64,000 bases of DNA, taken from NCBI RefSeq assembly GCF_020616155.1, contig NZ_CP085530.1, positions 2,726,501-2,790,500 of the forward strand, read 5' to 3'. This DNA is from Vogesella sp. XCS3 (GTDB lineage: Bacteria; Pseudomonadota; Gammaproteobacteria; Burkholderiales; Chromobacteriaceae). The notes under the pieces are model-generated. The model searched no databases, was not told where the DNA came from, and was given only the letters and a program-made list of their open reading frames with translations. Positions 443 to 63,307 of the stretch are shown one piece after another (position 1 is the first letter of the stretch; each line of letters starts with the position of its first letter). The position numbers and the translations under genes are program-made.

Positions 443-1678
443 ATGCCCAGCCCAGCCCGCCTCGTTCGCCCCGCCCTGCTCGCCGCCGCGCTGTGTGCGG
501 CCAACCTTGCTGTTGCCGCCCAGCCCGCCAGCGCACCGTTTACCCCGGCGCAGCAGCAGGCCATCCGCCAGATCAGCGCCAGTGCCGCCCAGGCGCAAGT
601 GCCGCTGGTGGCCAGTGCGGCTGCTGCCAGCGTGGCCAAAACTATCGAAGGCGAAAAGCAGGCCATCGATGTGGCCAAGGACGCGCTGGAAGTTGGCCGC
701 AAGTCGGTGGATTGGTGGCTAACGGCTCTAGGCTTGGTTATGGCTTTGGCAGGTATCGGTCTGTCCGTCTGGTTGAGCCGTAAGCATGATGAAGTAGAGG
801 TCAAACTGAAGGAGGCTGATGCTGCTAAGCAGAAAGCTGAGATTGCTTTGCGCCACGCAGAGCAGTTGATTGAAAATTTCAGCAAGCAAGCCAGTCTCAT
901 TCCGAATGCTGATGCAATCTCTGACAAGCTATCGGCCGATGTTCTTGAAAAACTCAAAATGGTAAAGCCACCACAGGTAGTCAAACTGATTGAGCAGGCA
1001 TGGGCCGCGCACCATCAAAAAAACTGGGTTATAGCTAAACCACTATGGGAGCTACTCAGCTTGATCGAGAGTCAGGATGCCAACGTCTGGTTCAACCTGG
1101 CGTATGCCGAACAGCATGCAGGTAAAGACTTCCAGCTCATTTGTGATGGATACCAGCGTTCACATCTTTTGGAGCCGTCCGCGGAAGCCAGCAACAACTG
1201 GGGCAATGCCTTGTCGGATTGGGCTAATACCCTGACGGGCGAGGCACAGCAGCAGCGTTTTGCCGAGGCCGATCAGCGCTATGCCGAGGCAAACCGCCTG
1301 AAACCGTACTTTGCTGAGGCCTACTCTAACTGGGGCAATGCCTTGTTGGATTGGGCGCTTACCTTGCAAGGTGACGAGCGGCAAACCAAGCTTGCCAGAG
1401 CTGAAGAAGTACTACTACTAGCGAAGAATAAGGGTGCGAAGAGCAGCCACTACAACCTCGCCTGCCTGCGCGCCGTACAACAGCGCCCCGACGAAGCCTG
1501 CACATTGTTGAAAGAAACGTATGCCTTGTTGGATGAAATCCGCACCGCCGGTTTGGTGCCCGACTTTGCCCACCTGAGCACCGACCCCCATCTGGAGAAT
1601 CTGCGCGGGCTGGACTGGTTCCAGGCGCTGCTGGAGCAGGTAAAGCAGCAAGAGGCGGGTAAGCAAGGTTCTACGTAA
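443..1678 (+). CDS. Membrane-anchored TPR-repeat protein
   Basis: 411 aa. The chosen ATG gives an N-terminal signal peptide (RLVRPALLAAALCAANLAVA). The upstream in-frame ATG at 338 would add a non-hydrophobic extension. Residues about 90-110 form a transmembrane helix (WWLTALGLVMALAGIGLSVW), followed by a Lys/Glu-rich coiled coil and then TPR-like repeats from about 200 to 370, including two near-identical WGNAL(S/L)DWA units. I infer an inner-membrane scaffold with a cytoplasmic TPR domain; partner unknown. Odd: the first ~270 and last ~230 bases are about 65% GC, while the middle (roughly 730-1440) falls to about 42-50% GC with unlike codon use, suggesting a recombined or acquired central segment. 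Confidence 0.75.
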   Translation: MPSPARLVRPALLAAALCAANLAVAAQPASAPFTPAQQQAIRQISASAAQAQVPLVASAAAASVAKTIEGEKQAIDVAKDALEVGRKSVDWWLTALGLVMALAGIGLSVWLSRKHDEVEVKLKEADAAKQKAEIALRHAEQLIENFSKQASLIPNADAISDKLSADVLEKLKMVKPPQVVKLIEQAWAAHHQKNWVIAKPLWELLSLIESQDANVWFNLAYAEQHAGKDFQLICDGYQRSHLLEPSAEASNNWGNALSDWANTLTGEAQQQRFAEADQRYAEANRLKPYFAEAYSNWGNALLDWALTLQGDERQTKLARAEEVLLLAKNKGAKSSHYNLACLRAVQQRPDEACTLLKETYALLDEIRTAGLVPDFAHLSTDPHLENLRGLDWFQALLEQVKQQEAGKQGST

Positions 1679-1700
1679 ACATTGGTACTGTTTTCATCGC

Positions 1701-1737
1701 AAAAAGGTTGGCCGCATCGCTGCGGCCAACCTTTTTG
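1701..1737. terminator. Bidirectional intrinsic terminator built from an inverted GGTTGGCCGCA pair
   Basis: A perfect 16-bp stem (AAAAAGGTTGGCCGCA, loop TCGC, then its complement) with A-tract and T-tract flanks lies between the convergent TPR gene and thiC. Both arms are copies of the dispersed GGTTGGCCGCA word. Confidence 0.9.
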
Positions 1738-1751
1738 TTTCACGTGAAGCA
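1736..1751. other. parS-like site 1
   Basis: TGTTTCACGTGAAGCA differs by one base from the bacterial parS consensus TGTTTCACGTGAAACA bound by ParB. It lies directly beside the terminator, between two convergent genes. Confidence 0.65.
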
Positions 1752-1759
1752 ATCGCCGT

Positions 1760-3892
<2,133 letters not shown>

Positions 3893-3899
3893 AGCGATG

Positions 3900-4031: not shown

Positions 4032-4691
4032 ATGAATTTCGAACAAGCCCGTTTCAACATGGTTGAGCAGCAAATCCGTCCGTGGGATGTGCTCGACACC
4101 TCCATTCTCGACCTGCTGTTTCACGTGAAGCGCGAAGACTTCGTGCCGGTAGAAAAGCGCCAGCTGGCGTTTGTGGACATGCAGCTGCCACTGGAAAACG
4201 GCACCGCCATGCTGGAGCCGAAAGTCGAAGCCCGTCTGCTGCAAGACCTGCAAGTAAAAGCCAGCGACAAGGTACTGGAAGTGGGTACCGGTAGCGGCTA
4301 CCTCACCGCCCTGCTGGCCGCTGTGAGCCAGCACGTGTACAGCGTGGACCTGGACGCCGAGCAAAGCGAACGTGCTGCGGCCAACCTGAAAACCGCCGGC
4401 ATCCGCAACGTGACCCTCAGCGTGGGTAACGGTATCGAAGGCCTGCCAGGCCAGGCCCCGTTCGACGTGATCTGCGTTGGCGGCTCCACCCCGGTAGTGC
4501 CCGAAGCGCTGAAAGCCCAGCTGGCCGTAGGTGGCCGCCTGGCCGTGATCGTGGGCGATGCCCCGGTGATGATTGCCAAGGTCATTACCCGTGTGGGCGA
4601 AAACGCCTACCAGGAAGCGGTAAGCTTCGACACCAACCTGCCGCGCCTGCAGCAGCTGGACGCCATCGAGCCGTCGCGCTTCAGCTTCTGA
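4032..4691 (+). CDS. pcm: Protein-L-isoaspartate O-methyltransferase
   Basis: 219 aa. SAM-dependent enzyme that methylates abnormal L-isoaspartyl residues to start protein repair. SAM motif I reads EVGTGSGYLTALLA at about residues 83-96, and the N-terminal block MVEQQIRPWDVLD is typical of the Neisseriales/beta-proteobacterial form. The ATG at 4032 has GGAG eleven bases upstream; the earlier in-frame start at 3945 adds atypical sequence. The stop overlaps the start of the downstream rhodanese gene by one base, so the two are translationally coupled. Codons for FHVK at 4117-4132 contain a parS-like palindrome. Confidence 0.92.
   Translation: MNFEQARFNMVEQQIRPWDVLDTSILDLLFHVKREDFVPVEKRQLAFVDMQLPLENGTAMLEPKVEARLLQDLQVKASDKVLEVGTGSGYLTALLAAVSQHVYSVDLDAEQSERAAANLKTAGIRNVTLSVGNGIEGLPGQAPFDVICVGGSTPVVPEALKAQLAVGGRLAVIVGDAPVMIAKVITRVGENAYQEAVSFDTNLPRLQQLDAIEPSRFSF
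4117..4132. other. parS-like site 2 (inside pcm)
   Basis: TGTTTCACGTGAAGCG. The 14-bp core GTTTCACGTGAAGC has one mismatch to the parS core and is identical to the core at 1737. Confidence 0.55.
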
Positions 4692-6639: not shown

Positions 6640-7005
6640 TCAGACAGGCATAGCCACAGGCAGTTGGCCACGCGCCAAGCAGCGCTGTTCGATGCGGCCA
6701 ACCTGCAGCGCCTGCTGCAGCACCGCCAGCGCGGCGGCGTGGGCGGCGCTGCCGCACAGAAACAGGTCTACCGCCGCGTAGCCGTGTTCCGGCCAGGTGT
6801 GGATGCTGATGTGCGATTCGGCCAGCAGCAGCACGCCGGTGACGCCCAGGCCGGCGCCGAAATGGTGGAAATGGCCGGCCAGTACGTGCGCCCCGGCGGC
6901 GCGGGCGGCGGCGTACAGCGCCTGCTCCACGCCGGCGGCGTCGGCGAGTAGGGAGGCCGGGCACTGGTACAGCTCGGCCAGCAGGTGTTCGCCCAGGTGG
7001 CTCAT
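6640..7005 (-). CDS. speD: S-adenosylmethionine decarboxylase proenzyme
   Basis: 121 aa, the short bacterial class 1 type. Makes decarboxylated SAM, the aminopropyl donor for spermidine synthesis. The self-processing site ESHISIHTWPEHG is present, with Ser64 as the predicted pyruvoyl precursor. Its start overlaps the stop of the Gly-rich peptide gene by four bases (ATGA). It is the last gene of a leftward unit (DUF350, SPFH, DUF4178, Gly-rich peptide, speD) divergent from an aminopropyltransferase gene, supplying the cosubstrate for that enzyme. Confidence 0.95.
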   Translation of the reverse strand: MSHLGEHLLAELYQCPASLLADAAGVEQALYAAARAAGAHVLAGHFHHFGAGLGVTGVLLLAESHISIHTWPEHGYAAVDLFLCGSAAHAAALAVLQQALQVGRIEQRCLARGQLPVAMPV

Positions 7006-7158: not shown

Positions 7159-8625
7159 TCAGTCCCCCAGCGGTAGCCACAGGATGACGGTGGCAATGAA
7201 ACACAGGGTAAGCGCGCCGCCGCTGTCGCCGCCCAGGATCAGCGGCGCGTTCACCAGCCACAGCAGCACGCTGGCGGCCATCGCCACGGGGCGTAGCGCC
7301 GCCTTGCTGCTGGCGGCAGCTTGTGGTTTGAATGCGGTGGCCACGGGGGCGGCTTTGCCAAACCAGCGCGCCAGCTCGGCCGGGCTTACGCTGCGGCTGC
7401 TGCTCCAGGTCAGCTCCTGCGGGCTTTGTTCGCTGGCCAGCAGGGTGTTGCCGTCGCTGCTGATGTATTCGCGGATGCTGACGCGCTCGCCCACGCGGGC
7501 GCGCCACGGAAAGGCGCCCGCGGCGTAGGCAATGTGGGCGTCGTAGGCCGGGTAGCGCGCGGCAAAGCGCTGCTTGCCCCAGCTGGCTTGCTGCGCGCCG
7601 GCCTGGTCTACCCAGATGTCCATCAGCGTGCCCAGCCACCAGCCGTTACCGGTTTCGGTGAGCCAGCGCAGGCCCAGTATCGGTTCGTATAGCAGGTACT
7701 CGTTCCAGCTGCTGTTGCGGTCTTCGCTTTCCTGCCAGCCCAGCAGGCCGATGATGGTCCACACTTTGCCGTCTATGGTGGCCTGGCTGCCGTTGGCCAG
7801 CGTAAAGCGCAGCGTGCTGGTTTGCTGCGCCTTGTGCTGGCCCAGCACGGTGGCGCGTTCGCCCTGGATGTCCACTTCGCTGCCGCACGACGGGCAGTTC
7901 AGGTGGGTGGCGCTGCCGGCGCGGTAGTCCAGGCTGGCGCCGCATTGCGGACAAGCCAGCTGCTGCACGCTGCCTTTGAGCTTGCCGGTGGCAGCGCTGA
8001 TCATGCGCTCGTCGCGCAGGCGCTGCATGTTCAGCTGCTTCAGCGTCACCGCTTCGCCCAGGTACAGCTGTGGCGGGCTGCCGTCGCTGTAGTCCAGCGT
8101 GAGGAAGCGGCCACCGCAGCGGGCGTCGGCTACCGGCGCGTCGTAGCCGGGCTGCAGCTGGCGCGGCAGCTCGCCCTCGCCCGCCACGCAGCGCGCGCGG
8201 CGGATGTCGCAGAATACGAAGCTGTCTTTGCCCTGTGGCCAGAGCTGGCCGGCTTGCAGGCTGTCAAACGCGGGGGCATTGTCGCTGCGGCCTTGTGCCT
8301 GGGTCAGCACGTACTGGCCCACGCTATCGGCCAGCCAGGCGCTTTCGCCGTCGTCGAACAGGATGTGCCACTCGTTCCACACCCCGGCGTCGTACTGCAG
8401 CTGGATGCGGCCAACCACGGTGAACTGGCGGCCGCACCAGATGCCGCTGGCGGCGATTTGTAGCGGCGAGTAGTCGTCCAGCAGCGCGGCCATTTTGCCG
8501 ATGTCGCGCACGCTGTCGGCGTCGCGCAGCAGTGTGCTCTGGCAATAGCTACACACCGCCAGCACCGAGCTGGTGGCGTGAAAGCGCACGTCGGCGCCGC
8601 AGGCGGGGCAGGCGACGTGGTACAT
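7159..8625 (-). CDS. DUF4178 protein with two zinc-ribbon/DUF4178 modules and C-terminal membrane helices
   Basis: 488 aa. Two similar halves: each starts with a zinc-ribbon-like CxxC pair (CPACG...CSYC at residues 6-28; CPQCG...CPSCG at about 222-248) followed by a DUF4178 beta-rich domain. The last ~50 residues hold two hydrophobic helices, so it is probably anchored in the inner membrane with its zinc domains in the cytoplasm. DUF4178 repeatedly sits next to speD, DUF350 and SPFH genes. Biochemical role unknown; a lipid- or membrane-stress scaffold linked to polyamines is only an inference. Confidence 0.85.
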   Translation of the reverse strand: MYHVACPACGADVRFHATSSVLAVCSYCQSTLLRDADSVRDIGKMAALLDDYSPLQIAASGIWCGRQFTVVGRIQLQYDAGVWNEWHILFDDGESAWLADSVGQYVLTQAQGRSDNAPAFDSLQAGQLWPQGKDSFVFCDIRRARCVAGEGELPRQLQPGYDAPVADARCGGRFLTLDYSDGSPPQLYLGEAVTLKQLNMQRLRDERMISAATGKLKGSVQQLACPQCGASLDYRAGSATHLNCPSCGSEVDIQGERATVLGQHKAQQTSTLRFTLANGSQATIDGKVWTIIGLLGWQESEDRNSSWNEYLLYEPILGLRWLTETGNGWWLGTLMDIWVDQAGAQQASWGKQRFAARYPAYDAHIAYAAGAFPWRARVGERVSIREYISSDGNTLLASEQSPQELTWSSSRSVSPAELARWFGKAAPVATAFKPQAAASSKAALRPVAMAASVLLWLVNAPLILGGDSGGALTLCFIATVILWLPLGD

Positions 8626-8656
8626 CAGGCAGGGTTGGCCGCAGTGTGGATCATGC

Positions 8657-9682: not shown

Positions 9683-9764
9683 GGCGAAGACTCCATCAAG
9701 GTTGGCCGCAGCCGGGTCGTAAACAATTGATCGCGCCGGCTGCCCGGCGCAGCGCGCAGCCGTT

Positions 9765-10221: not shown

Positions 10222-11745
10222 ATGAAAGCCTGCATGCGCGATCGTCTGCTTATCCTGTCGGTGTTTGTGGTGGCGTCCTGCGGCCTGGCCTACGAGCTGA
10301 TCGCCGGGGCGCTGGCCAGCTACCTGCTGGGCGATTCGGTGCTGCAGTTCTCGTCCATCATCGGCTGCTACCTGTTCGCCATGGGCGTGGGCTCGCACCT
10401 GTCGCAGTACGTGAAAGACGAGCGCGTGCTGGACACCTTCATCGAGATCGAGCTGTTGGTGGCGCTGCTGGGCGGCCTGTCGGCCAGCGCGCTGTTTGCG
10501 GTGTTTGCCTGGAGCGGCGAGTCGTTCCGCCTCACGCTGTACGCGCTGGTGTTCCTCACCGGTGCCATGGTGGGCATGGAGATTCCGCTGGTGATGCGTG
10601 CGCTGAACCAGCGCCAGCAACGCTTTGCCGAGCTGGTGAGCCGCGTGCTCACCTTCGACTACCTGGGGGCGCTGGCGGTATCGCTGCTGTTCCCTATCGT
10701 GCTGGCGCCGCGCTTGGGGTTGGCGCGCTCGGCGCTGCTGTTCGGCCTCAGTAACGTGGCGGTGGCGCTGTGGACCTGCCGCGTGTTCCGCGCCGAGCTG
10801 CTGCGGCCAACCGTGCAGTACCTGCGCAGCCTGCTGGTGCTGCTGGTGCTGGGTGGCAGCTTCATCGCCGCCGACGAGCTGACGCGCTGGAACGAAAAAG
10901 CCATCTACGGCGACGACGTCATCCACGCCGAAACCACGCCCTACCAGCGCCTGGTGCTGACGCGCTGGAAAGGCGACCTGCGCCTGTACATCAACGGCAA
11001 CCTGCAGTTTTCCAGCCGCGACGAGCACCGCTACCACGAGGCGCTGGTGCACCCGGTGCTGGGCGCGCTGCCGTGGGCGCGGCAGGTGCTGATCCTGGGC
11101 GGCGGCGACGGCCTGGCCGCGCGCGAGGTGCTGAAGTACCCCCATGTGCAGCAGGTGACGCTGGTGGACCTGGACCCGGCGATGACCGGCCTGTTCAGCC
11201 GCAGCGCGCCGCTGCTGGCGCTGAACGGCGGCTCGCTGCGCAACCCGCGCTTGCGCGTGGTCAACGACGACGCCGCGCGCTGGCTGGAGCAGCACCCCGA
11301 CGTGTTCGACGCCATCATCGTCGACTTTCCCGACCCGTCCAGCTTTGCGCTGGGCAAGCTGTACTCGGTGCCGCTGTACCGGCTGCTGTCGCGCCACCTG
11401 GCCGACAACGGCCTGGCCGTGGTGCAATCCACCTCGCCCTACCACGCGCCGCGTTCGTACTGGAGCATCAACGCCACGCTGCGCGCCGCCGGGCTGGCTA
11501 CCACGCCCTACCACGCCTACGTGCCGTCGTTTGGCGAGTGGGGTTTCATCATTGCCGCCCATCGCCCCGGCTACATGCCGCCGCAGGCCTACCGCGTGCC
11601 GCTGAAATTCCTCGACCGCGAGGCCACGCGGCAGATGTTCTTCTTCCCGCCCGACATGCGGCCGTGGCGCGTCGAGCCCAACCAGCTGAACGACCAGCGC
11701 CTGGTGCATTACTTCGAGCAGGACTGGTCGCAGGTGATCCGCTGA
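10222..11745 (+). CDS. speE: Membrane-anchored polyamine aminopropyltransferase (spermidine synthase homologue)
   Basis: 507 aa, about twice the length of soluble SpeE. Residues 1-210 form several transmembrane helices. The rest is a spermidine-synthase fold with the dcSAM-binding motif GGGDG (about residue 293), the acidic VDLDP strand end, and a VDFPDP loop with the catalytic-type Asp. Predicted to move an aminopropyl group from decarboxylated SAM to a polyamine at the cytoplasmic membrane face. The stop overlaps the next start (TGATG). Confidence 0.88.
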   Translation: MKACMRDRLLILSVFVVASCGLAYELIAGALASYLLGDSVLQFSSIIGCYLFAMGVGSHLSQYVKDERVLDTFIEIELLVALLGGLSASALFAVFAWSGESFRLTLYALVFLTGAMVGMEIPLVMRALNQRQQRFAELVSRVLTFDYLGALAVSLLFPIVLAPRLGLARSALLFGLSNVAVALWTCRVFRAELLRPTVQYLRSLLVLLVLGGSFIAADELTRWNEKAIYGDDVIHAETTPYQRLVLTRWKGDLRLYINGNLQFSSRDEHRYHEALVHPVLGALPWARQVLILGGGDGLAAREVLKYPHVQQVTLVDLDPAMTGLFSRSAPLLALNGGSLRNPRLRVVNDDAARWLEQHPDVFDAIIVDFPDPSSFALGKLYSVPLYRLLSRHLADNGLAVVQSTSPYHAPRSYWSINATLRAAGLATTPYHAYVPSFGEWGFIIAAHRPGYMPPQAYRVPLKFLDREATRQMFFFPPDMRPWRVEPNQLNDQRLVHYFEQDWSQVIR

Positions 11746-13343
11746 TGCAGCGCCGCGACTTTCTGCGTACCGCCGCCGCGCTGGCCGGCTTGCCGCTGCT
11801 CACCGGCTGCCAGCAGCTGCTGGGCTGGGGCTTGCCGGTGGACGTGCTGCGCCCTGGCATGGCCACCGGCCACCGCCTGCGCGACGCCGCCACGCTGCCG
11901 CCGCCACGCAGCGAGCGGCGCGTGGACACCGTGATCGTCGGCAGCGGCGTGGCCGGCCTGTTTGCCGGCTGGCGGCTGGCGCGCGAAGGTTACCGCGACT
12001 TTGTGCTGCTGAACGGGCCGGAGCCGGACGGCAACGCCGCCGCCGGTGCCTTCGACGGCTGGCGCTACCCCACCGGCGCGCATTACCTGCCGCTGCCCTC
12101 GCCCGAGTCGGCGCACGTGCGCACGCTGCTGGCCGAGATGGGCGTGATTGAAGCCGGCAGCGACAGCCTGCGGCCAACGTTTGACGAACGCGTACTGGTG
12201 CACGCGCCGGACGAGCGGCTGTGGCGCGACGGCCAGTGGCAGGATGGCCTGCTGCCGCGCGGCCTGGGCGCCGATGACGACGCGCAGCAGCAGCGCTTTT
12301 TGCTTCACGTGAAACAATTGCAGCAACAGCACGGTGCCGATGGCCGCCGCGTGTTTACCGTGCCTACCGCGCTGGCGTCGCAAGACCCGGCCTGGCGCGC
12401 GCTGGACAGGCAAAGCTTTGCCAGCTGGCTGGCGGCGCACGGTTACACCGCGCCCGGCCTGCTGTGGTACCTGGACTACTGCTGCCGCGACGATTACGGC
12501 AGCACGCTGGCGCACACCTCGGCGTGGGCCGGCCTGCACTACTTTGCCGCCCGTGGCGGCCATGCGGCCAACGCCGAGGACGGCGCGGTGCTCACCTGGC
12601 CGGACGGGCTGAACCCGCTGCTGCGCCACATGCGCGGCCGCATCGGCCACGACAGGCAGCTGGATGGCGCCGCCTGGCGCATCCGTCAGCAGGGCAAGCA
12701 GGTGCTGGTGGATTACATCGACGCTACCGGTGCGCAGCGGCTGCTTGCACGGCGCGTCATCGTGGCCACGCCGCTGCACGTGGCCTGGCACCTGCTGCCG
12801 CAGCTGCCGGCGCTGGGCTTCCAGCACGCCCACCTGCCGCCGCGGGCGCCGTGGCTGGTGGGCAATGTGCTGCTGGAGCGCTTCCCCGCCGAGCCGGTCA
12901 GCCAGCCGCTGGCGTGGGACAACGTGGTGTACGGCAGCCGCAGCCTGGGCTACGTGGTGGCCACCCATCAGCTGATCCGCGCCGCGCTGCCGGAGCGCAC
13001 GGTGTTTACCACTTACCACGCCTTTGCCGATGCGCCGCCCGCCGCCACGCGGCCATGGTTGGCCGCCGCCAGCGCCGACGCGCTGTTTGAGCAGGCCACC
13101 GCCGACCTGTACGCCGTGTACGGGCCGCGCCTGCACCGCCATATGTTGGCCGCACGCCTCACCGTGCGCGCCCACGCCATGGCCAGCCCGCAGCCGGGCT
13201 TTCTGGCCAACCCTGGGCTGGCCGCACTGCGCGCTGCCGACGGCCCCATCCTGTTTGCCCACGCCGATTTGTCCGGCCTGTCGCTGTTTGAAGAAGCCGC
13301 CTGGTGGGGCGACGTGGCGGCGCAGCGGGTGCTGGCGGCCTGA
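11745..13343 (+). CDS. FAD/NAD(P)-binding oxidoreductase, Tat-exported putative lipoprotein
   Basis: 532 aa. The N-terminus carries a twin-arginine start (MQRRDFLRTAAALAGLPLL) running straight into a lipobox LTGC, so it is likely Tat-exported and lipid-anchored. A Rossmann motif GSGVAGLFAGWRLA at about residues 65-78 marks an amine-oxidase/NAD(P)-binding flavoprotein fold. Being one base overlapped with the aminopropyltransferase, it may oxidise a polyamine product outside the cytoplasm; this is inference. A parS-like palindrome lies within the gene at 12301. Confidence 0.8.
   Translation: MQRRDFLRTAAALAGLPLLTGCQQLLGWGLPVDVLRPGMATGHRLRDAATLPPPRSERRVDTVIVGSGVAGLFAGWRLAREGYRDFVLLNGPEPDGNAAAGAFDGWRYPTGAHYLPLPSPESAHVRTLLAEMGVIEAGSDSLRPTFDERVLVHAPDERLWRDGQWQDGLLPRGLGADDDAQQQRFLLHVKQLQQQHGADGRRVFTVPTALASQDPAWRALDRQSFASWLAAHGYTAPGLLWYLDYCCRDDYGSTLAHTSAWAGLHYFAARGGHAANAEDGAVLTWPDGLNPLLRHMRGRIGHDRQLDGAAWRIRQQGKQVLVDYIDATGAQRLLARRVIVATPLHVAWHLLPQLPALGFQHAHLPPRAPWLVGNVLLERFPAEPVSQPLAWDNVVYGSRSLGYVVATHQLIRAALPERTVFTTYHAFADAPPAATRPWLAAASADALFEQATADLYAVYGPRLHRHMLAARLTVRAHAMASPQPGFLANPGLAALRAADGPILFAHADLSGLSLFEEAAWWGDVAAQRVLAA
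12301..12316. other. parS-like site 3 (inside flavoprotein gene)
   Basis: TGCTTCACGTGAAACA: one mismatch across the full 16-base parS consensus, with the central TTCACGTGAA palindrome intact. Confidence 0.6.
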
Positions 13344-13448: not shown

Positions 13449-15482
13449 ATGAGCACCAATCCGCTGCTAGCCAACTGGGATACGCCCCACCAGTTTCCCC
13501 CGTTCGACCAGATCGACGCCGCGCACTTTGTACCGGCGTTCGAGGCGCTGTTCGCCGCCCATCAGGCCGAGCTGGACACCATTGCGGCCAACCCGGCTGC
13601 CCCTGATTTTGCCAATACCGTTGCCGCACTGGCCCGGAGTGGCCTGCTGCTGGAACGCGCCAGCCTGTTGCTGGATAACCTGTCTGCCTCGGTAGGCAGC
13701 GACGCGCTGCAGGCGGTGGAGCGCGACATGGCGCCACGCCTGGCCGCCCACCACAGCAGCGTGTACCTGAACGCCGCGCTGTTTGCCCGCCTGGACGCGG
13801 TGTACCGCGAGCGCGCCGCGCTGGGGCTGGACGAAGAACAACAGCGCCTGCTGGCACGCCTGCACCGCAACTTCGTGCGTGCTGGCGCCCGGCTGGATGG
13901 CGAGGCGCGCAGCCGCTTTGCCGCCATCGTGTCGCGCCTGGCCGAGCTGCAAACCGCGTTCAGCCAGAACGTGCTGGCCGACGAGGGCGAGTACGTGCTG
14001 CCGCTGGGCGAGCAGGATATCGACGGCCTGCCCGGCTACGTGCTGGACGCCGCGCGCAACGCCGCCACCGAACGCGGGCTGGATGGCTACGCGCTGACGC
14101 TGTCGCGTTCGGCGGTCATCGGTTTTCTGACCTACTCCACCCGCCGCGACCTGCGCGAACAGCTGTGGCGCGCCTGGACCAGCCGTGGCGAAAACCCGGC
14201 GCGCGCCAACGCGCCGCTGGCGCGCGAGATTCTGGCGCTGCGTACCGAGAAAGCCGCGCTGCTGGGCTACGCCAGCTACGCCGACTACGCGCTGGAAGAC
14301 CGCATGGCCGGCAAGCCGCAGGCGGTGTACGACCTGCTGGCGCAAGTGTGGGAGCCGGCCAAGCAACGCTTTGCTGCCGAAAAAGTCATGCTGCAGCAGG
14401 AAGCAGCGCGCCAGGGCCTGCCGCAAGACATCCAGCCGTGGGATTGGTGGCTGCTGGCCGAAAAAGTACGCGTGGCACGCTACGCGCTGGACGACGCCCA
14501 GATCAAGCCCTACTTCAGCCTGCCGCGCATGCAGGCCGCCATGTTCGATGTGGCCGGCCGCCTGTTTGGCCTGCAGTTCGCCCCGCGTGACGACCTGCCG
14601 CGCTACCACCCCGACGTGCGGGTATGGGAAGTGCGCCGCGACGACACCGTGATCGGCCTGTTCATCGGTGACAACTACGCGCGCCAGGGCAAACGCGGCG
14701 GGGCGTGGATGCACTTGTTCCAGCAGCAAAGCGGCAAGGGCACAGACCGCGTGCTGCCTATCGTCATCAACAACAACAACTTTGCCAAGGCTGGCAGCGG
14801 CCCTACCCTGCTGAGCTTTGACGACGTGCGCACGCTGTTCCACGAGTTCGGCCACGCGCTGCACGGCCTGCTGTCCGACGTGCAGTACCGCCTGCTGTCC
14901 GGCCCCAATACGCCGCAGGACTACGTGGAGCTGCCGTCGCAGCTGCTGGAAAACTGGGCGCTGGTGCCGGAAGTGCTGGCCGAGCACGCGCGCCATGTGG
15001 ACAGCGGCGAGCCGATTCCGCCGGCGCTGGTGGCGGCCATCAAGGCGGCCAGCACCTTCAACCAGGGCTTCGAGACCGTGCGCTACAGCGCGTCCACGCT
15101 GATCGACCTGGCGCTGCACCAGCGCAACGACGCCGACGGCGTGGATATTCTGGCCTTTGAAGCCGCCGAGCGTACGCGCCTGGGCGTGCCGCTGGAAGCG
15201 GGCATGAACCACCGCCTGCCGCACTTTGGCCACGTGTTTTCCGACGACTACTACGCCGCCGGTTACTACGTGTACATGTGGGCCGAGGTGCTGGAGGCCG
15301 AAGCGTTTGCGGCGTTTGAAGAAGCCGGCAACCCGTTTGACGCCGCGCTGGCCGCCAAGCTGCAGCGTTACATCTACAGCGCCGGCGACGCGCGCGAGCA
15401 GCGGGCGGCGTTCCGCGCCTTCCGCGGCCATGACCCGCAGGCGGCGCCGATGCTGGAAAAACGTGGCCTGCTAGCGGTGTAA
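13449..15482 (+). CDS. dcp: Peptidyl-dipeptidase Dcp (M3 family zinc peptidase)
   Basis: 677 aa, like E. coli Dcp (about 680). Removes C-terminal dipeptides from peptides. The zinc motif HEFGH sits at residues 465-469. Conserved Dcp/M3 blocks are recognisable (YHPDVRVWEV, LSGPNTPQDYVELPSQLLENW, YYAAGYYVYMWAEVL). I favour Dcp over oligopeptidase A (PrlC) because of the overall pattern and N-terminus. No signal peptide, so cytoplasmic. It stands alone between a 105-base upstream gap and a terminator. Confidence 0.9.
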   Translation: MSTNPLLANWDTPHQFPPFDQIDAAHFVPAFEALFAAHQAELDTIAANPAAPDFANTVAALARSGLLLERASLLLDNLSASVGSDALQAVERDMAPRLAAHHSSVYLNAALFARLDAVYRERAALGLDEEQQRLLARLHRNFVRAGARLDGEARSRFAAIVSRLAELQTAFSQNVLADEGEYVLPLGEQDIDGLPGYVLDAARNAATERGLDGYALTLSRSAVIGFLTYSTRRDLREQLWRAWTSRGENPARANAPLAREILALRTEKAALLGYASYADYALEDRMAGKPQAVYDLLAQVWEPAKQRFAAEKVMLQQEAARQGLPQDIQPWDWWLLAEKVRVARYALDDAQIKPYFSLPRMQAAMFDVAGRLFGLQFAPRDDLPRYHPDVRVWEVRRDDTVIGLFIGDNYARQGKRGGAWMHLFQQQSGKGTDRVLPIVINNNNFAKAGSGPTLLSFDDVRTLFHEFGHALHGLLSDVQYRLLSGPNTPQDYVELPSQLLENWALVPEVLAEHARHVDSGEPIPPALVAAIKAASTFNQGFETVRYSASTLIDLALHQRNDADGVDILAFEAAERTRLGVPLEAGMNHRLPHFGHVFSDDYYAAGYYVYMWAEVLEAEAFAAFEEAGNPFDAALAAKLQRYIYSAGDAREQRAAFRAFRGHDPQAAPMLEKRGLLAV

Positions 15483-15505
15483 GGTTGGCCGCAGGCTAAA
15501 CGCAC

Positions 15506-49985: not shown

Positions 49986-51704
49986 ATGCTCACCGAAATG
50001 AGTAAACCGGCCCCGACGCGCCCGAATCTGGCGCTAAAACGGCGCATCGCCCTGGCTTTGCGCCGCTCCCGGCGTAGCCAGGACACGGGCCAGCACCAGC
50101 TTGGCGTGCAGGCAGCCGAGGAGGCGCTACGGCTCTGCGAGCTGCCGCAGCATCGCCCGCAGTGGCAGCAGGCCATGGCGCAGCTGGCCCTGCATCAGTT
50201 TCGCATGGGCCATTTTGCGGATGCGGTGCGTAGCGGGCTGGAAGTGGCGGCCACCCTGGATTTTGGCCCCGATGCCGCCTTGCGTGCCGAAGTCTTGTGC
50301 GTGGTGGCGATTGCCTGCAACGAAATGGGCTTGATGCAGGATGGTCTCAAATACGCACTGGAAGCCCTGGCCGCCGCCCGTAGCAGTAATGACCCGGTAC
50401 AGATCATCAACGCCTTGAACCGCGCCGGCGTGTGCACCTACGGCGCCCTGGGCGATCTGGAGCAAGGCGTGCAGCTCTTGCACCAGGCCGGCGAGCAGGC
50501 ACGCTTGGCCGGCGAGCGCGTACTGCTGTTTGCGGCCTTGAACAATATCGGCACGCTATACAGCAGCGAGGCCCGCAAGCATCTGAAGCTAGGCCGGCAG
50601 GCAGAGGCGCCCGCCCTGCTGCAGCGTGCGCTGGCGCATTACCACGACGCCTGGCAAAGCGCGGGCACCGAGGGCAACCGCCACCAGTGGGCCATGCTGC
50701 AAACCAATCTGGCCGAGGCGTATGTCGATCTGGGCGAGTTTGACCATGCACGGGCGGCGCTGGCCGAGCTGCGCCACGTGCTGGCCGGCAGCGACTTTTA
50801 CTCCTTGCAGCGTAATGCAGACCTGATAGAAGCCACGCTGCTGCAGCGTAGCGGCCTGGTAAGCGAAGCCGTGGCCGCCTTGCAGCAGATGCTGGCATTG
50901 CCGGGCCATATGATCGAATTCGAAATGCGCCACTTTGCACAGGAAGAGTTGTACCGCCTGTACAAATCCACCGGGCAGTTCGAGCTGGCCTTGGCCCAGC
51001 TGGAGGCGCTACGCCACAGCGAGCAAGAGCAAAACGAGCAGCGCAGCAGCACCCAGGGCTGGGCTATCCGCAAGGAGCTGGAAATCACCAGCGTGCAGTT
51101 GGCCGCCGAGCGCGAGCGCCTGTATGCCGAGCGCGAACGCTTGCGTGCAGCCCAGCTGGAGGCGGAAAAAGTGGTGACCGAAGCGCGCATGAGCGAGCTG
51201 GAGCAGGCGGTGCTGATCGACCCGTTGACCGGTGTGGGCAACCGCCGTTGCCTGGATCTGGAAGGCCCGGCTAGGTTGGCCGCACTGGGCCAGCAGCTGC
51301 ACGGCATGGCGGTGGTGGTGGTAGATCTGGATCATTTCAAATCCATTAACGACCGTTTTGGCCATGTGGTTGGCGACGAGGTGCTGAAAAAAGTGGCGCA
51401 GCTGATGGCGCTCAGTACCCGTGGCAGCGACCTGACCGTGCGCTTTGGCGGCGAGGAGTTTGTGCTGCTGCTGATGGAGCAGTCGCAGGACAGCGCACTG
51501 CGCTGCTGCGAGCGTTTGCGGCTCGCCATCCTGAATTACAGCTGGGCCGAGGTGCACCCGCAGCTGCAGGTCACGGCCAGCTTTGGCATGCATTGGTGCC
51601 AGTCGCCGCAGCCGTGGGAGCTCGCTTTACGCCAGGCCGACCTGGCTTTGTATCAGGCCAAGCGTCTGGGGCGTAACCGCTTGCAGTTATCCAGCCCGGG
51701 CTAG
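49986..51704 (+). CDS. Cytoplasmic TPR-repeat diguanylate cyclase (GGDEF)
   Basis: 572 aa, soluble. TPR region about residues 30-350 (AALNNIGTLYSSEARKHLKLGR; QTNLAEAYVDLGEFDHARAAL), long coiled coil of AERERLYAERERLRAAQLEA type, then GGDEF. Active site GGEEF with an intact I-site RGSD five residues earlier. Paralogue in layout of the 45346 gene. The N-terminus is Arg-rich. Ends in a strong terminator. Confidence 0.92.
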   Translation: MLTEMSKPAPTRPNLALKRRIALALRRSRRSQDTGQHQLGVQAAEEALRLCELPQHRPQWQQAMAQLALHQFRMGHFADAVRSGLEVAATLDFGPDAALRAEVLCVVAIACNEMGLMQDGLKYALEALAAARSSNDPVQIINALNRAGVCTYGALGDLEQGVQLLHQAGEQARLAGERVLLFAALNNIGTLYSSEARKHLKLGRQAEAPALLQRALAHYHDAWQSAGTEGNRHQWAMLQTNLAEAYVDLGEFDHARAALAELRHVLAGSDFYSLQRNADLIEATLLQRSGLVSEAVAALQQMLALPGHMIEFEMRHFAQEELYRLYKSTGQFELALAQLEALRHSEQEQNEQRSSTQGWAIRKELEITSVQLAAERERLYAERERLRAAQLEAEKVVTEARMSELEQAVLIDPLTGVGNRRCLDLEGPARLAALGQQLHGMAVVVVDLDHFKSINDRFGHVVGDEVLKKVAQLMALSTRGSDLTVRFGGEEFVLLLMEQSQDSALRCCERLRLAILNYSWAEVHPQLQVTASFGMHWCQSPQPWELALRQADLALYQAKRLGRNRLQLSSPG

Positions 51705-51772: not shown

Positions 51773-52951
51773 TCAGGGCAGCAGGCTGAACTGATGTTGC
51801 CAGCGCAGTAACCAGCGCTCGCGCGAGCGCGGGTCGGTCTGGTCTTCTTGCCATTCCAGCGACCACTGCTGGTTTTTGGCCGCTTGCCAGCGCAGGCGCA
51901 CGCCCAGGACTTCGGGCTGATGCTGGCTGCTGGTGATGCCGGCTTCCTTGGCCAGGATGGCGGCATTGGCACCGGTGAGCGTGTGCTGCAGGCGCAGGCG
52001 TTCGTAGCGCACACTGCCATCTACACCCGCGACCAGCGGCGCGCTGGCTTCCAGTGCCAGCCAGTCGGCACGGCCATCGTAGTCTACCTTGCCGGTAGGG
52101 CTGCTCAGCTTGCCTTGTTCGCGGCGGCTGCCCGCCGCGCCACGCAGGGTGACGCCGTATAGTTGGCCGCGTGCGGCCAACTCCAGCCACTGGCCATCGC
52201 CATTCAGGCAGGCCAGCGTGGTCTGGCAACCGCTGGCACCACCGTGGCTATGGCTGTGGCCGTCGCCAGCCAGCGCATTCTGCCGGGTGACGCGCGGGGT
52301 ATCGGCCGCGGTCAGGCCTAGTTGCAGCGGGCCGATATCTTGTTCCAGCGCCAGCAGCCACAGGCCGGTTTGTGCGCCGCTACGGCGTGTACCGGGGTTG
52401 CTTTCGCCGCGCAGCGCCGACACGGTCAGGCGGCGGCCAGGCTGTTGCAGCTGCAATGCCAGGCCGCTGTCGTGCCAGTGGTCGTGGCCGCCGGTAAGCA
52501 GGGTGTCGCGCAGGCTGCTGCGCCCCCACTCGTCGGCAGCCAGGGCTTGCGCCGGGCTGAAGCGGCCTGCTTGCAGCGCAAGCGTGCCGGGGATGGCAGC
52601 CCAGCGCAGCCAGGCCTGGTCGTTGGCTAGCTGCTCGCGCTCGCGGTCGTAGCTGAGGGCCCATTGCGTCTGCAGGCCGGGTAGCCAGCGTGCTTGCCAG
52701 CCCAGGGTGCTGCGGTCGGCGTTCAGCTCGCGCAGGCTGGCCGCGGCAGGGTGGTCGATCTGCGTGAGTGCCGCCGGCGTGGTGTGGCTGCCGCGGCCCT
52801 GGCGCAGGTCCAGGTCCAGCGTGAGCTGCTGTGCCGGGGCGGCGCTGTCGGCATCGTCATCGTGCACAACGCCGTCGTGCGCCCAGCTACCGCTGCTACT
52901 GGCCAGCAGGGAAAGGATTGCTAAAGCGCGGGTTGGTAAGAAGTGTGTCAT
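51773..52951 (-). CDS. His-rich outer-membrane beta-barrel-like protein of the metallo-mystery operon
   Basis: 392 aa. Signal peptide cleaved after SWA; the mature N-terminus is His/Asp-rich (HDGVVHDDDADS). Alternating beta-strand pattern and a final aromatic-ended strand (WLLRWQHQFSLLP) suggest an outer-membrane barrel. A loop GDGHSHSHGG and the N-terminus could bind copper or another metal. Third gene of the MbnP-MbnH unit, overlapping MbnH by 56 bases. Likely a metal channel or receptor; inference from context. Confidence 0.72.
   Translation of the reverse strand: MTHFLPTRALAILSLLASSSGSWAHDGVVHDDDADSAAPAQQLTLDLDLRQGRGSHTTPAALTQIDHPAAASLRELNADRSTLGWQARWLPGLQTQWALSYDREREQLANDQAWLRWAAIPGTLALQAGRFSPAQALAADEWGRSSLRDTLLTGGHDHWHDSGLALQLQQPGRRLTVSALRGESNPGTRRSGAQTGLWLLALEQDIGPLQLGLTAADTPRVTRQNALAGDGHSHSHGGASGCQTTLACLNGDGQWLELAARGQLYGVTLRGAAGSRREQGKLSSPTGKVDYDGRADWLALEASAPLVAGVDGSVRYERLRLQHTLTGANAAILAKEAGITSSQHQPEVLGVRLRWQAAKNQQWSLEWQEDQTDPRSRERWLLRWQHQFSLLP
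52161..52182. repeat. Inverted pair of the dispersed motif inside a gene
   Basis: AGTTGGCCGC-GT-GCGGCCAACT, perfect 10-bp arms inside the outer-membrane protein gene. Shows the motif pair occurs in coding DNA and not only in terminators. Confidence 0.7.
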
Positions 52952-54065: not shown

Positions 54066-55063
54066 TATTTGCTTTCTACACGGAAGGCCGGCACGTTGCT
54101 GCCGTCACCTTTGGCCTGGCCTGCCGGGCTGGTAGCCAGGTTCAGGTCGAGCTTGTCAAAGATAGCCGGGCATTCCGGGTCGGTGGTGCCACTCATGCAG
54201 CCGACAGCGCCGCCCGCGTCTTGCGACAGGTTACTGCCGGCCAGCAGCTGCTGGATGTCCAGCACCACTTGCTGGCTGGACGGGTTGAAGGCGGCAAACT
54301 TCACCGGCAGGCGGTTCGGGTTGCTGCAGGTCACCCCCAGGCCGGTAAGACTGTCGCCACCCGTGCAGTTGGTGGAGCCCAGGTGGATGTTAAAGGTGGT
54401 GGACGTAGACGGTGGCGTGGTGGGGCGGGCGACGCCGCCTACCGGGTTGAGCTCGACTTTCATGAACTTGCGGCCAACCTGCCAGCTCCAGGCCATGGCG
54501 GCGATATTCAGCGGGGCCGGGGCGGTGGCATACGGCAGATGGTTCATGCCCACGCTGTTGCCGCTGCTGTTGGTGGCGGTGTAAGGCACGCCTACCTGGA
54601 AGCTCAGGCCGACATAATTGCCGCTGTCTATGGTGCCTTGAATCAAACTGTTTGTGGCGGCAGTGCCCGCAGAGCAGGTGCCGCTTGCGTTTTCAAAGTC
54701 CAGCAGGGCGGTATTCAGGTATTGCCACTGGTTGTCCTGGGTCAGTTTTACCGGGACAGCATTGCCCTGGGCCGTGATCAGCTTCACGTCGTGAACGTAA
54801 AAGCGCGCGTCTTTCAGGTCGGCACTGACGGCACTGGTCCCCAGGCTGCTGACGGTGGTGCCACAGCTCACGCTGTTGCTGCCGGATTTCAACGCAAACT
54901 GGATGCTGACGGGGCTGCTGCTAGGGGTATTTGTGGCAGTGCTGGTGCTTGTCGAGCTGGTAGCGGTTGTGGCTGCCGGAGAGGCATTGCCGCCACCGCC
55001 GCCACCCAGGCAAGCGGTCAACATGAAGGGCAAGGCGGCCAAAGGCAGGAGTGCAGTGCGCAT
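54065..55063 (-). CDS. MbnP-family four-Cys copper-binding protein (metallo-mystery pair)
   Basis: 332 aa. Lipobox LTAC, a Gly/Ser/Thr-rich linker, then the family core IQFALKSGSNSVSCG, LKDARFYVHDVKLI, YVGLSFQVGVPY, NHLPYATAPAPLNIAAMAWSW and GRKFMKVEL. Four or more Cys and the conserved Trp/His region fit MbnP-like proteins whose Trp is oxidised by MbnH. First gene of the operon. Role: periplasmic copper capture, inferred from the family. Confidence 0.88.
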   Translation of the reverse strand: MRTALLPLAALPFMLTACLGGGGGGNASPAATTATSSTSTSTATNTPSSSPVSIQFALKSGSNSVSCGTTVSSLGTSAVSADLKDARFYVHDVKLITAQGNAVPVKLTQDNQWQYLNTALLDFENASGTCSAGTAATNSLIQGTIDSGNYVGLSFQVGVPYTATNSSGNSVGMNHLPYATAPAPLNIAAMAWSWQVGRKFMKVELNPVGGVARPTTPPSTSTTFNIHLGSTNCTGGDSLTGLGVTCSNPNRLPVKFAAFNPSSQQVVLDIQQLLAGSNLSQDAGGAVGCMSGTTDPECPAIFDKLDLNLATSPAGQAKGDGSNVPAFRVESK

Positions 55064-55202: not shown

Positions 55203-55691
55203 TTACACCCCGGTAATCCGCTTTTCCATCATCAGGTAGGGGGTGCCACCCAGACCGGACTGGGCAAAGCCTTCACCCTGATACAGGCTGCGGCCAACGT
55301 GGTTGTCGGCGCGTACTTCCAGGGTGACTTTGGCGCAGCCTCGCGCTAGCGCCGCGGCCTCTACCGCCTGCATCAGCGCCCTGCCCAGCCCCAGGCCGCG
55401 CGCCGCGGGCAGTACCGACAAGTCGTGCAGATTGCACACCGGTGCGGCGTAAAAACTGGAAAAGCCCAGCACACACAGCGCGTGGCCGACCGCTTCGCCG
55501 TCACGTTCGGCAATCAGGGCAAACAGGCCAGGGTGCTGCCCCAGCGCGGCGGGCAGGTGTTGCCGGGCGTGTTCGCTTAGCCCCTCGCCACCGCCCATGG
55601 CATCGCGGGCGTAGGCGTCGGTCAGCTGCATCAGCAGCTGGCAATCGGCGGGGTCGGCCAGGTTGGCCGCACGGATAGCCAGGGTGCTCAT
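55203..55691 (-). CDS. GNAT N-acetyltransferase
   Basis: 162 aa. GNAT fold with acetyl-CoA loop ARGLGLGRALMQAVEAAA, LHDLSVLP strand and C-terminal SLYQGEGFAQSGL. Similar to small GNATs with unknown substrates. The start overlaps the lptM stop by four bases (ATGA). Confidence 0.88.
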   Translation of the reverse strand: MSTLAIRAANLADPADCQLLMQLTDAYARDAMGGGEGLSEHARQHLPAALGQHPGLFALIAERDGEAVGHALCVLGFSSFYAAPVCNLHDLSVLPAARGLGLGRALMQAVEAAALARGCAKVTLEVRADNHVGRSLYQGEGFAQSGLGGTPYLMMEKRITGV

Positions 55692-55804: not shown

Positions 55805-55903
55805 ACGGAATCCGGGTGCTATGGCAAAATGGCAGTCTATCAGGCCGCTGCCGTACTGCCCATGCAGTGCTGCCTGCGGCCAACCTTGAGACAGGATGAC
55901 ACC

Positions 55904-56224: not shown

Positions 56225-56632
56225 ATGACTGAGCTGGCCCTGCTGGCGGGCCTGGCCGCGTCGGCCTTTCTGTCGGCTACGGTCTTGCCGGGTAATTCCG
56301 AGCTGGCCTTGTCTGCCCTGCTCTACCAGCAACCGTCGCTACTGTGGCCTGCTGTGCTGGTCGCCAGCGTGGCCAATACGGCAGGCAGTGCCACCAGCCT
56401 GTGGCTGGGGCGGCGCGCACCGGCCAAGGCCTTGCCGGCGCGCACGGCCGGCTGGTTTGCCCGCTTTGGCCCCGCTACCTTGTTGTTAAGCTGGGTACCG
56501 TTGCTGGGCGATGCCTTGCCGCTGGCTGCCGGCTGGCTGCGGCTGCCGTGGTGGCCTTGCCTGCTATGGTTGGCCGCAGGCAAAACGCTGCGTTATCTGC
56601 TGCTGGTGTGGGGGCTGCAGTGGTGGCGCTAA
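56225..56632 (+). CDS. YqaA/DedA-family membrane protein
   Basis: 135 aa, four to five helices. SATVLPGNSELALSALLY, ASVANTAGSATSLWLGRR and SWVPLLGDALPLAAGWLR are DedA/SNARE-associated (YqaA) signatures. Membrane lipid or antibiotic-resistance related transporters, function not settled. The ATG immediately follows the cyaY stop. Confidence 0.88.
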   Translation: MTELALLAGLAASAFLSATVLPGNSELALSALLYQQPSLLWPAVLVASVANTAGSATSLWLGRRAPAKALPARTAGWFARFGPATLLLSWVPLLGDALPLAAGWLRLPWWPCLLWLAAGKTLRYLLLVWGLQWWR

Positions 56633-61721: not shown

Positions 61722-61753
61722 GCAGCGAAGCTTGGCCGCCAGCGTGCGGCCAA

Positions 61754-61769
61754 CGTTTCACATGAAACG
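61754..61769. other. parS-like site 5
   Basis: CGTTTCACATGAAACG: one mismatch in the 14-bp parS core (centre CATG, not CGTG), outermost bases also differ. Located between gltL and its terminator, directly after an inverted TTGGCCGC/GCGGCCAA pair (61732-61753). Confidence 0.5.
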
Positions 61770-61790
61770 CTGCCCGCTGTCAGCCAACCC

Positions 61791-61819
61791 AGCCCCCCGC
61801 TTTGCGAGGGGCTTTTTTT
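61791..61819 (+). terminator. Intrinsic terminator after gltL
   Basis: AGCCCC..CGC / GCG..GGGGCT stem with one mismatch, followed by seven Ts. Confidence 0.9.
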
Positions 61820-61996
61820 ATAGAATCTTTGAAGCAAGCCGCGGTGCTTCCCCCGCGGCGTTCCGCCCCCAGGGGGCTCTGGTGCGCCCCACCGGGCAAT
61901 GATGCTGTGATTTTCAAACGGCAAACGCAGTGTTTTTCTATTGAATGCCACAAGAGAGATAAAGCGGTAAAACGATATCGCGAGGGAGTACGATAA

Positions 61997-63280
61997 ATGT
62001 GCTACCGGATGGTTTTGTTCGGTCTGGGCTTGGGCTACCATCGACCCGTTATTACCAGAATGCCTGCCATGTATTCCACGATCTATCTTGGCCGCCAGCC
62101 TATTGTCGATGCCCAGCAAAAGCGTGTGGCCTATGAACTGCTGTTTCGCTCGGGCCCGGAAAACCGTGCCCTGTTCCAGGACGATGTCAACGCCACCGCA
62201 TCGGTGATTCGCCACGCCTTTATCGACCTGGGCTTGTCGCGGGTGCTGGAAGGCTGCCCGGGGTTCGTGAATGTCAGCGAGAAGCTCTTGTTCAGCCCGG
62301 TGCTGGACTTATTGCCACCGGACACCATCATTCTGGAGATCCTGGAAAGCGTGGAACTGACGCAGTCGGTATACGAGCGCTGCCTCCAGCTGAAAGCGCG
62401 GGGCTACCAGTTGGCGCTGGATGATGTGTGCGATATCACGCCGGCGATGCAGAAACTATTGCCGCTGGTGGATTACCTGAAATTCGACCTGCAGCAAGTG
62501 CCACTTTCGGCTTTGCCCGCACTACTACAGAAGCTGCAGGGCTTTCGCGGCCAACTGCTGGCCGAAAAAGTGGATACCTTCGAACAATACGAAGCGTGCA
62601 AGCAGCTGGGTATCCGGCTGTTCCAGGGCTATTTCTTTGCCCGTCCTACCGTGATGAGCCATAACCGCGCGCACCCGCATCGAGCGCTGCTGCTGCGCCT
62701 TTTGGGCCTGGTGATGAAAGACGCCGATGTCGCCGAGCTGGAAAGCGTGTTCAAGGCGGCACCGGACATGGTGGTGGGCTTGCTGAAGCTGGTGAACGCT
62801 GCCGAGTCCTACCGCCAGCCGGTGGGTTCGATACGCGAGGCCATCATTACCCTGGGCTCGTCCAAGCTCAAGCGCTGGGCGCTGATCATCCTGTTTGCCG
62901 CCGACTGCCGCCCATCGCAGGGCCCCAGCCCGCTACTGGAAATGGCGGTAGTGCGCGGGCGCATGATGGAGTTGCTGGCGGACGATGCCGGCATCGACCC
63001 GGACGAGGCGTTCATGACGGGTGTGCTGTCGTTGGCAGATACCTTGCTGGCCACGCCGATGGCGGACCTGGTGAGCGGTCTGGCATTGAGCCAGGACGTT
63101 CAGCAGGCGCTACTGGCGCGAAGCGGGCCCTTGGGCCAGCTGCTGGCACTGGTGGCGCTAGGCGAGTGTCAGGAGCAAGCCTCGCCCCTGCCGGATATGG
63201 ATGCCGAACGTTTCAATGCCTTGCAGCTGTCTGCGCTGGCCTGGGTACGCGAAACCTGGCGTGACGATTTTCTTGGCTGA
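61997..63280 (+). CDS. Degenerate EAL - HDOD signalling protein
   Basis: 427 aa. An EAL-like domain (YLGRQPIVDAQQKRVAYELLFRSG; LAEKVDTFEQYEACKQLG; LFQGYFFARP) followed by HDOD (about residues 225-400). The first catalytic Glu reads YELLFR and the usual DDFG acidic pair reads LDDVCD, so c-di-GMP phosphodiesterase activity is doubtful; a c-di-GMP-binding role is more likely. GAGGGAG is well spaced before the ATG at 61997; shorter starts at 62060 or 62069 are possible. Confidence 0.85.
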   Translation: MCYRMVLFGLGLGYHRPVITRMPAMYSTIYLGRQPIVDAQQKRVAYELLFRSGPENRALFQDDVNATASVIRHAFIDLGLSRVLEGCPGFVNVSEKLLFSPVLDLLPPDTIILEILESVELTQSVYERCLQLKARGYQLALDDVCDITPAMQKLLPLVDYLKFDLQQVPLSALPALLQKLQGFRGQLLAEKVDTFEQYEACKQLGIRLFQGYFFARPTVMSHNRAHPHRALLLRLLGLVMKDADVAELESVFKAAPDMVVGLLKLVNAAESYRQPVGSIREAIITLGSSKLKRWALIILFAADCRPSQGPSPLLEMAVVRGRMMELLADDAGIDPDEAFMTGVLSLADTLLATPMADLVSGLALSQDVQQALLARSGPLGQLLALVALGECQEQASPLPDMDAERFNALQLSALAWVRETWRDDFLG

Positions 63281-63307
63281 AGGTTGGCCGCAGGTGGTGA
63301 TAAACAG

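Follow-up and report, generated by a model that had tools for sequence, protein, structure and literature searches.

Why does one short word recur throughout a 64,000-nucleotide stretch of the Vogesella sp. XCS3 genome (contig NZ_CP085530.1, positions 2,726,501 to 2,790,500; hereafter the window)? The first-pass annotation had counted by eye about 55-57 copies, roughly half of them extending to a longer word, and had proposed either an uptake-like or an architectural sequence. We found 64 exact copies of the 9-mer GTTGGCCGC in the window (39 on the plus and 25 on the minus strand), where 100 dinucleotide shuffles gave a mean of 2.45 and a maximum of 8, and 34 of the 64 are the full 11-mer GGTTGGCCGCA (0.22 expected), so that the observation is confirmed and the share of about half is right. 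From sequence comparison, it is very likely that the 12-mer AGGTTGGCCGCA serves the genus Vogesella as its DNA uptake sequence (DUS), read by a ComP-type pilin and belonging to a divergent dialect family.

The excess extends to the whole genome (3.89 Mb in two contigs), the check that the first-pass annotation had proposed. The 11-mer occurs 1,301 times (664 + 637) against 1 + 0 occurrences of the reversed word used as a control, and the 10-mer GTTGGCCGCA occurs 2,279 times (1,173 + 1,106) against 8 + 3. Our family set consisted of 61 Chromobacteriaceae genomes, 13 of Vogesella and 48 others from nine genera. All 13 Vogesella genomes carry 1,141-1,510 copies of the 11-mer (controls 0-4), and each of the 48 others carries 1-22. 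Of 120 genomes sampled from the order, only the two of Vogesella had the 10-mer in abundance, the next highest count being 52.

The anatomy of the word was examined in 464 kb of the same genome, comprising the window and 20 further stretches, each 20 kb long (with 3,500 masked N in stretch L113). The 9-mer was present 422 times in this sample (225 forward, 197 reverse) and the 11-mer 180 times; the resulting motif is cAAgGTTGGCCGCA, with flat flanks and no conservation beyond about 14 bp. Besides 115 perfect copies of AGGTTGGCCGCA, there were 129 with a single mismatch at the first two positions (65 at position 1 and 64 at position 2), 11 with one over positions 3-11 combined and 22 with one at position 12. 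Such a sharp core with loose edges is the layout of a DUS, that is a 10-mer plus two looser bases at -2 and -1. Genes were called with our own script, covering 79.5% or 82.8% of the sample depending on the analysis; as the script misses genes, the intergenic counts include some coding copies. Coding copies numbered 295, against 37.8 expected from synonymous shuffling and 24.9 from a codon-pair chain, and intergenic copies numbered 124 against 2.2 expected. Most copies stand singly and about two thirds lie within genes, where three codon frames account for 255 of 284 coding copies. In the window, the copies reported within thiD, hemL and SNF2 genes were found at 34174 in the thiD-type open reading frame (ORF), at 39531 in the hemL-type ORF, and at 42057 and 42774 in the SNF2 ORF.

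Neighboring copies are strongly oriented. Adjacent copies no more than 100 bp apart are inverted in 38 cases and direct in 3 (p 1e-8), 30 inverted pairs have gaps of at most 40 bp, and many lie between runs of A and T. One example is the hairpin at 1699-1738, whose predicted RNA fold has an energy of -31.5 kcal/mol (z -8.33). Frye et al. (2013; PMC3630211) likewise report inverted pairs in all DUS genomes. Among the inverted pairs named in the first-pass annotation, those at 1706-1731 and 52162/52173 are exact, whereas near 19152-19170 and 61731-61754 one arm of each is imperfect; the copies it had seen just behind stop codons are at 15483 and 63282. The word set in the window is as follows.

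497-63291, both strands, whole word set: 64 copies of GTTGGCCGC, 34 of them full 11-mers
1699-1738, exact inverted pair of 11-mers (arms 1706-1716 plus, 1721-1731 minus) with flanking A and T runs, terminator-type hairpin
19152-19170, word at 19160-19170 (plus strand) with an imperfect inverted partner directly before it (19152-19159), just past the ORF end at 19146
52162-52181, exact inverted GTTGGCCGC pair with a gap of 2, within the minus-strand ORF 51773-52951
61731-61754, word at 61746-61754 (minus strand) facing the imperfect inverted partner CTTGGCCGC (61731-61739), just past the ORF end at 61721
15483-15493, plus strand, full 11-mer directly behind the stop of the M3 peptidase ORF 13449-15482
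63282-63292, plus strand, full 11-mer directly behind the stop of the EAL/HDOD ORF 61997-63280
31057-31067, minus strand, full 11-mer just past a photolyase-type ORF
39530-39540, plus strand, full 11-mer within the hemL-type ORF
496-506, minus strand, full 11-mer
3728-3738, plus strand, full 11-mer
4376-4386, minus strand, full 11-mer
6693-6703, minus strand, full 11-mer
8406-8416, minus strand, full 11-mer
8633-8643, plus strand, full 11-mer
9700-9710, plus strand, full 11-mer
10802-10812, minus strand, full 11-mer
13583-13593, minus strand, full 11-mer
16331-16341, plus strand, full 11-mer
18261-18271, minus strand, full 11-mer
19767-19777, plus strand, full 11-mer
20845-20855, minus strand, full 11-mer
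21944-21954, plus strand, full 11-mer
24567-24577, plus strand, full 11-mer
25666-25676, plus strand, full 11-mer
26650-26660, minus strand, full 11-mer
29179-29189, plus strand, full 11-mer
31975-31985, plus strand, full 11-mer
33134-33144, plus strand, full 11-mer
36045-36055, plus strand, full 11-mer
49000-49010, minus strand, full 11-mer
51274-51284, plus strand, full 11-mer
54469-54479, minus strand, full 11-mer
55661-55671, plus strand, full 11-mer
55875-55885, minus strand, full 11-mer
56568-56578, plus strand, full 11-mer

Comparison with related genera, also proposed at the first pass, revealed sister words. Six of ten other family genomes, covering nine genera and sampled at 40 kb, gave a related over-represented word: GGTTGGCCGAGC in g5, GTTGGCCGAA in g6, g7, g9 and g10, and GTTGGCCGAAG in genome G022 of g2. 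In G022 a second word, GTTTGCCGAAG, is over-represented alongside (stretches L166, L167 and L211), and in this the genome resembles Simonsiella muelleri, for which two DUS dialects are reported by Frye et al. (2013; PMC3630211). Inverted pairs were present in the samples of g5 (7, with 0 direct), g6 (1) and g9 (1). Over whole genomes, GTTGGCCGAA or GTTGGCCGAG occupies the place of the Vogesella word in 10 of the 48 other family genomes, with 238-2,223 copies; GTTGGCCGAA is the form in most word-bearing genera and GTTGGCCGAG in one, as GTTGGCCGCA is in Vogesella. The word GTTGGCCGAR occurs 2,017 and 1,668 times in the g5 genomes, 744 and 2,223 times in g6, 1,258 in g7, 1,872 in g9, 1,152, 238 and 942 in g10, and 1,386 in G022. 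It occurs 26-93 times in the 38 remaining non-Vogesella genomes, save for G052 (154) and G055 (130), both of g8, in which it is slightly raised. No outstanding word was found in the samples of Aquitalea (G014, 160 kb), g3 (G029, 160 kb), g8 (G051, 80 kb) and g4 (G042, 40 kb). The genus name of G014 comes from its 89% identity to A. magnusonii. Across 399 genomes drawn from the order, GTTGGCCGAA is abundant only in G022 and G050, the rest having at most 47 copies.

A candidate receptor is encoded in the same genome, where a search for the type IV pilin N-terminus gave 17 matches, 15 of them above the cut-off.

C1:3106142-3106558, ComP-type minor pilin gene, 138 aa, whose best solved-structure matches are ComP entries

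This candidate matches the PDB entries 2NBA (9.3e-8), 2M3K (1.7e-6) and 5HZ7 (7.6e-6), and it exceeds the Pfam ComP_DUS cut-off in a scan that covered 10 of the 17 pilins. A pilin from a g10 relative matches ComP 2M3K at 1.8e-13. ComP homologues were found in 52 of the 61 family genomes, including all 23 that bear a word and 29 of the 38 others; the nine genomes with no match (G023, G027, G028, G035, G042-G045 and G054) are all word-poor. A pattern of lysine loss in the ComP of word-poor genera was dropped, as it fails for the word-bearing G022. ComEC matches were present in 59 of the 61. Directly preceding the comP-type gene there is a GspH/FimT-like pilin gene (L116:9603-10142), a neighbor seen at 13 of 13 Vogesella loci and at none of 17 loci of other genera among the best two neighbors (loci of about 3.4 kb), and this pilin is a possible co-receptor. 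A second minor-pilin cluster at L113:8388-10384 contains four small pilin-like genes, one of which passes ComP_DUS at 38.9 bits.

The ComP candidates were also placed in the context of the order. In a profile search of 399 genomes the family scored 133-189 bits, 11 genomes of f44 scored 101-130 and the best others at most 106; the profile itself includes some family rows, and the lower edge of the scores overlaps with other genomes. We take f44 to be Neisseriaceae because, of four genomes sampled, three have DUS words; in the remaining one, G147 (sample G+C 16.5%), 40 kb gave no DUS word. A small surplus of GTTGGCCGAA over the reversed control was noticed in f44 genomes (G344, 47 versus 16; G372, 33 versus 11). 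In a pilin tree of 57 rows, the 11 f44 sequences and 35 Chromobacteriaceae ComP sequences, one each from 35 of the 52 ComP-bearing family genomes, form one clade (96/87) apart from other pilins; several rows of this tree have long branches, and according to the program's warning some groupings could be spurious.

The word is scarce in DNA that appears foreign. The poorest sampled stretch, L107, contains a tailed-phage prophage at L107:2-15547 (tail sheath, head, portal, terminase, spanin and amidase), with 22 genes called and all ten of the proteins compared with PHROGs matching phage families; in our reading it is Mu-like. One copy of the word lies in its tail-sheath gene and is followed by 14.7 kb devoid of any. 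Contig C2 (L217-L219; 164.5 kb, low GC), part of which resembles dnaB genes of plasmids, has 4 copies of the 9-mer and 0 of the 11-mer in 60 kb, to be compared with the 422 9-mers of the 464 kb sample. A second word-poor stretch, L103, has 7 copies in 20 kb, 54.8% G+C and few genes called. The plasmid collection used for comparison also holds two 2.17-Mb Neisseria gonorrhoeae records, presumably misfiled.

How then does the word relate to the systems already described? A dispersed self-specific uptake word is likewise found in the Pasteurellaceae, where the uptake signal sequence (USS) is an unrelated word with a different predicted receptor. With the DUS of Neisseriaceae the parallels are closer: both are 12-bp words with a strict 10-bp core behind two looser bases, both occur in numbers from roughly one thousand to several thousand in each genome, form inverted pairs as terminators, are scarce in mobile DNA and occur as lineage-specific dialects, and in both cases a ComP-type pilin is encoded. 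The earlier statement that no known dialect matches proved true letter for letter; nevertheless, the form common to the family, AGGTTGGCCGAA, shares 9 of 12 in-register positions with simDUS and mucDUS, and the word of Vogesella itself shares 8 of 12 with them. A random genome 12-mer reaches 9/12 against any of the eight dialects with a probability of 0.0034 when the register is fixed, and of 0.014 when either strand and shifts are allowed. The +6 C and +8 G are retained, and so is the +10 A, except for G in g5. Vogesella differs from its sister genera by GCA versus GAA. The same A-to-C change at +9 sets king3DUS (Kingella) apart from the dialect that is its sister, although king3DUS is otherwise unlike in the core and 7/12 identical to the Vogesella word. 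Differences from the Neisseriaceae DUS are the CCG core, identity of at most 9/12 and the host family, Chromobacteriaceae.

Frye et al. (2013; PMC3630211) looked at five genomes from the genera Laribacter, Lutiella, Pseudogulbenkiania and Chromobacterium and report that none had an obvious DUS; BLAST gave them no ComP in C. violaceum, and they have DUS originate only once Neisseriaceae and Chromobacteriaceae had separated. A 2025 paper (PMC12061091) still lists eight dialects, every one with a CTG core described as essential. Within the accessible parts of PMC12061091, PMC7371117 and PMC12616744 there is no mention of Vogesella or Chromobacter, nor of Chromobacter in those of PMC3868556.

Could the word accumulate for reasons that have nothing to do with uptake? 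Codon, codon-pair or composition bias might be suspected from the three preferred frames, but the coding counts are many times those expected from the codon models, the other family genomes have hardly any 11-mers, and the intergenic excess refutes this idea, which we regard as scarcely credible. The same is true of copies of a transposable or repetitive extragenic palindromic (REP) or bacterial interspersed mosaic element (BIME) type of repeat, or of terminators as such: the 30 close inverted pairs would suit them, but the copies are mostly single and mostly in genes, and the flat flanks refute a dispersed repeat. A signal of chromosome architecture or recombination, such as FtsK-orienting polar sequences (KOPS), Chi, a MatS-like site or a nucleoid-protein site, would agree with a word that is dispersed, genus-specific and scarce on the second contig. 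Equal strand counts over the whole genome cannot by themselves exclude a polar signal, and we therefore assigned copies to strands by the sign of the local GC skew. The G-rich strand holds 217 of 393 copies (55%, p 0.04), a weak excess which counts for such a signal and against an uptake word; a polar KOPS- or Chi-type signal would, however, be far more one-sided, with a strong replication-oriented bias, and was rejected. Since 18 of the 20 sampled stretches carry 16-25 copies of the 9-mer, there is no macrodomain pattern, and neither terminator pairs nor sister words in ComP-bearing genera would be expected. The architectural half of the original proposal thus finds little support, and we consider it very unlikely.

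A more serious competitor is an uptake sequence that arose independently in the Chromobacteriaceae, read by ComP or by a FimT/GspH-like pilin and sharing no descent with the DUS of Neisseriaceae, which we hold to be possible rather than probable. It draws on the 9/12 ceiling of similarity with its chance values, on the broken CTG core, on the samples of Aquitalea, g3, g4 and g8 where no word stands out, and on the pairing of comP with a GspH-like gene at all 13 Vogesella loci, a gene that is not among the best two neighbors at the 17 loci of other genera. It has to contend with the single clade formed by the ComP of both families and with the parallels in layout, in A/G at -2/-1 and in the A-to-C switch at +9.

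Several results weigh against a ComP-read DUS in Vogesella. The CTG core (+6 to +8) of all eight described dialects is CCG in the Vogesella word, which is accordingly not a member of the CTG-core set. Two further pilins of the genome exceed the ComP_DUS cut-off, one of them more strongly (81 bits, on L100, where the PilE-type gene 12200-12631 lies), although their best PDB matches are not ComP, so that we can only infer which pilin reads the word. As 29 word-poor genomes likewise have ComP-like genes, the presence of such a gene is not enough to predict a word. One invariant cysteine pair is common to ten aligned Chromobacteriaceae ComP rows, unlike the two of Neisseria ComP, whose two disulfides are crucial for binding according to PMC12061091; the ComP of G224, whose sample has DUS words, also has two cysteines. 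Both genomes that lack a ComEC match belong to word-bearing Vogesella; they are the drafts G009 (98% complete) and G010 (88% complete). Closely spaced pairs are not in themselves enriched (41 versus 39.8 expected within 100 bp), their orientation alone departing from expectation, and no inverted pair within 60 bp was found in the samples of g7, g10 and G022. Word-poor stretches are lower in G+C and their chance counts are consequently lower from composition alone, and one prophage gene does carry a copy. Where the hemL region could be aligned, the sites in other word-bearing genera did not coincide with those in Vogesella. A site-by-site switch of dialect was sought there and not seen, few sites aligning with other genera.

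Conservation of the word sites between species is mixed. The HemL protein encoded in the window is 100% identical to its counterpart in Vogesella aquatica, the genus belonging to the Chromobacteriaceae (Neisseriales). Aligned DNA of the hemL region in the Vogesella genome G002 is 93.5% identical to the window, so that the host is probably a different species of the genus. Sites are identical in 13 of 15 cases in G002, 13 of 14 in G008 and 14 of 14 in G010, against 9.9, 8.8 and 7.5 expected, and in 8 of 15 in G012 against 7.3; five more distant species keep 1-3 of 6-8, with about 1.7 expected.

Taken together, the genome-wide counts, the intergenic excess, the sister words and the ComP-type gene support the uptake-like reading of the first pass. 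If the word is a DUS, double-stranded DNA carrying it would be bound by a minor pilin of the ComP type at the type IV pilus, and the cell would thereby preferentially import DNA of its own kind. Copies born by mutation would spread through uptake and recombination more often than they are lost, and would so build up and settle where tolerated: between genes, in inverted pairs doubling as terminators, and in codon frames whose residues do no harm. The Vogesella word probably belongs to a Chromobacteriaceae dialect family AGGTTGGCCG(A/C)A that is related to the DUS of Neisseriaceae. The data argue that the DUS system is older than placed in 2013, or that it arose twice, with losses. We lean towards self-recognition by ComP and DUS that predates the split of the two families, survives in at least seven Chromobacteriaceae groups (Vogesella, genome G022 of g2 and five further genera), where it forms a second dialect family without the CTG core, and was lost in other Aquitalea-group genomes and some genera. 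Were this so, the origin of neisserial self-DNA recognition would move back beyond the point published in 2013, the CTG core would not be universal, and a DUS-type system would reach into a sister family that had been reported to lack it. The several dialects and their ComP would then form a natural series for studying how a pilin reads DNA and how dialects switch, with Vogesella as a non-Neisseria system for self-DNA recognition.

The pilus ATPase gene noted at the first pass is indeed present as a fragment. It may encode a pilus or a secretion ATPase, and it is given for context only.

63352-63999, minus strand, T2SSE-family ATPase gene fragment (PF00437, 98 bits), cut by the window end

The window also contains six palindromes resembling TGTTTCACGTGAAACA, which we take to be the parS consensus, with 1-3 mismatches (0.11 expected), at 1736-1751, 4117-4132, 12301-12316, 35757-35772, 49603-49618 and 61754-61769. 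Close to the window, somewhere from C1:2.51 to 2.65 Mb, the sign of the GC skew switches, and the window may therefore lie on the origin side.

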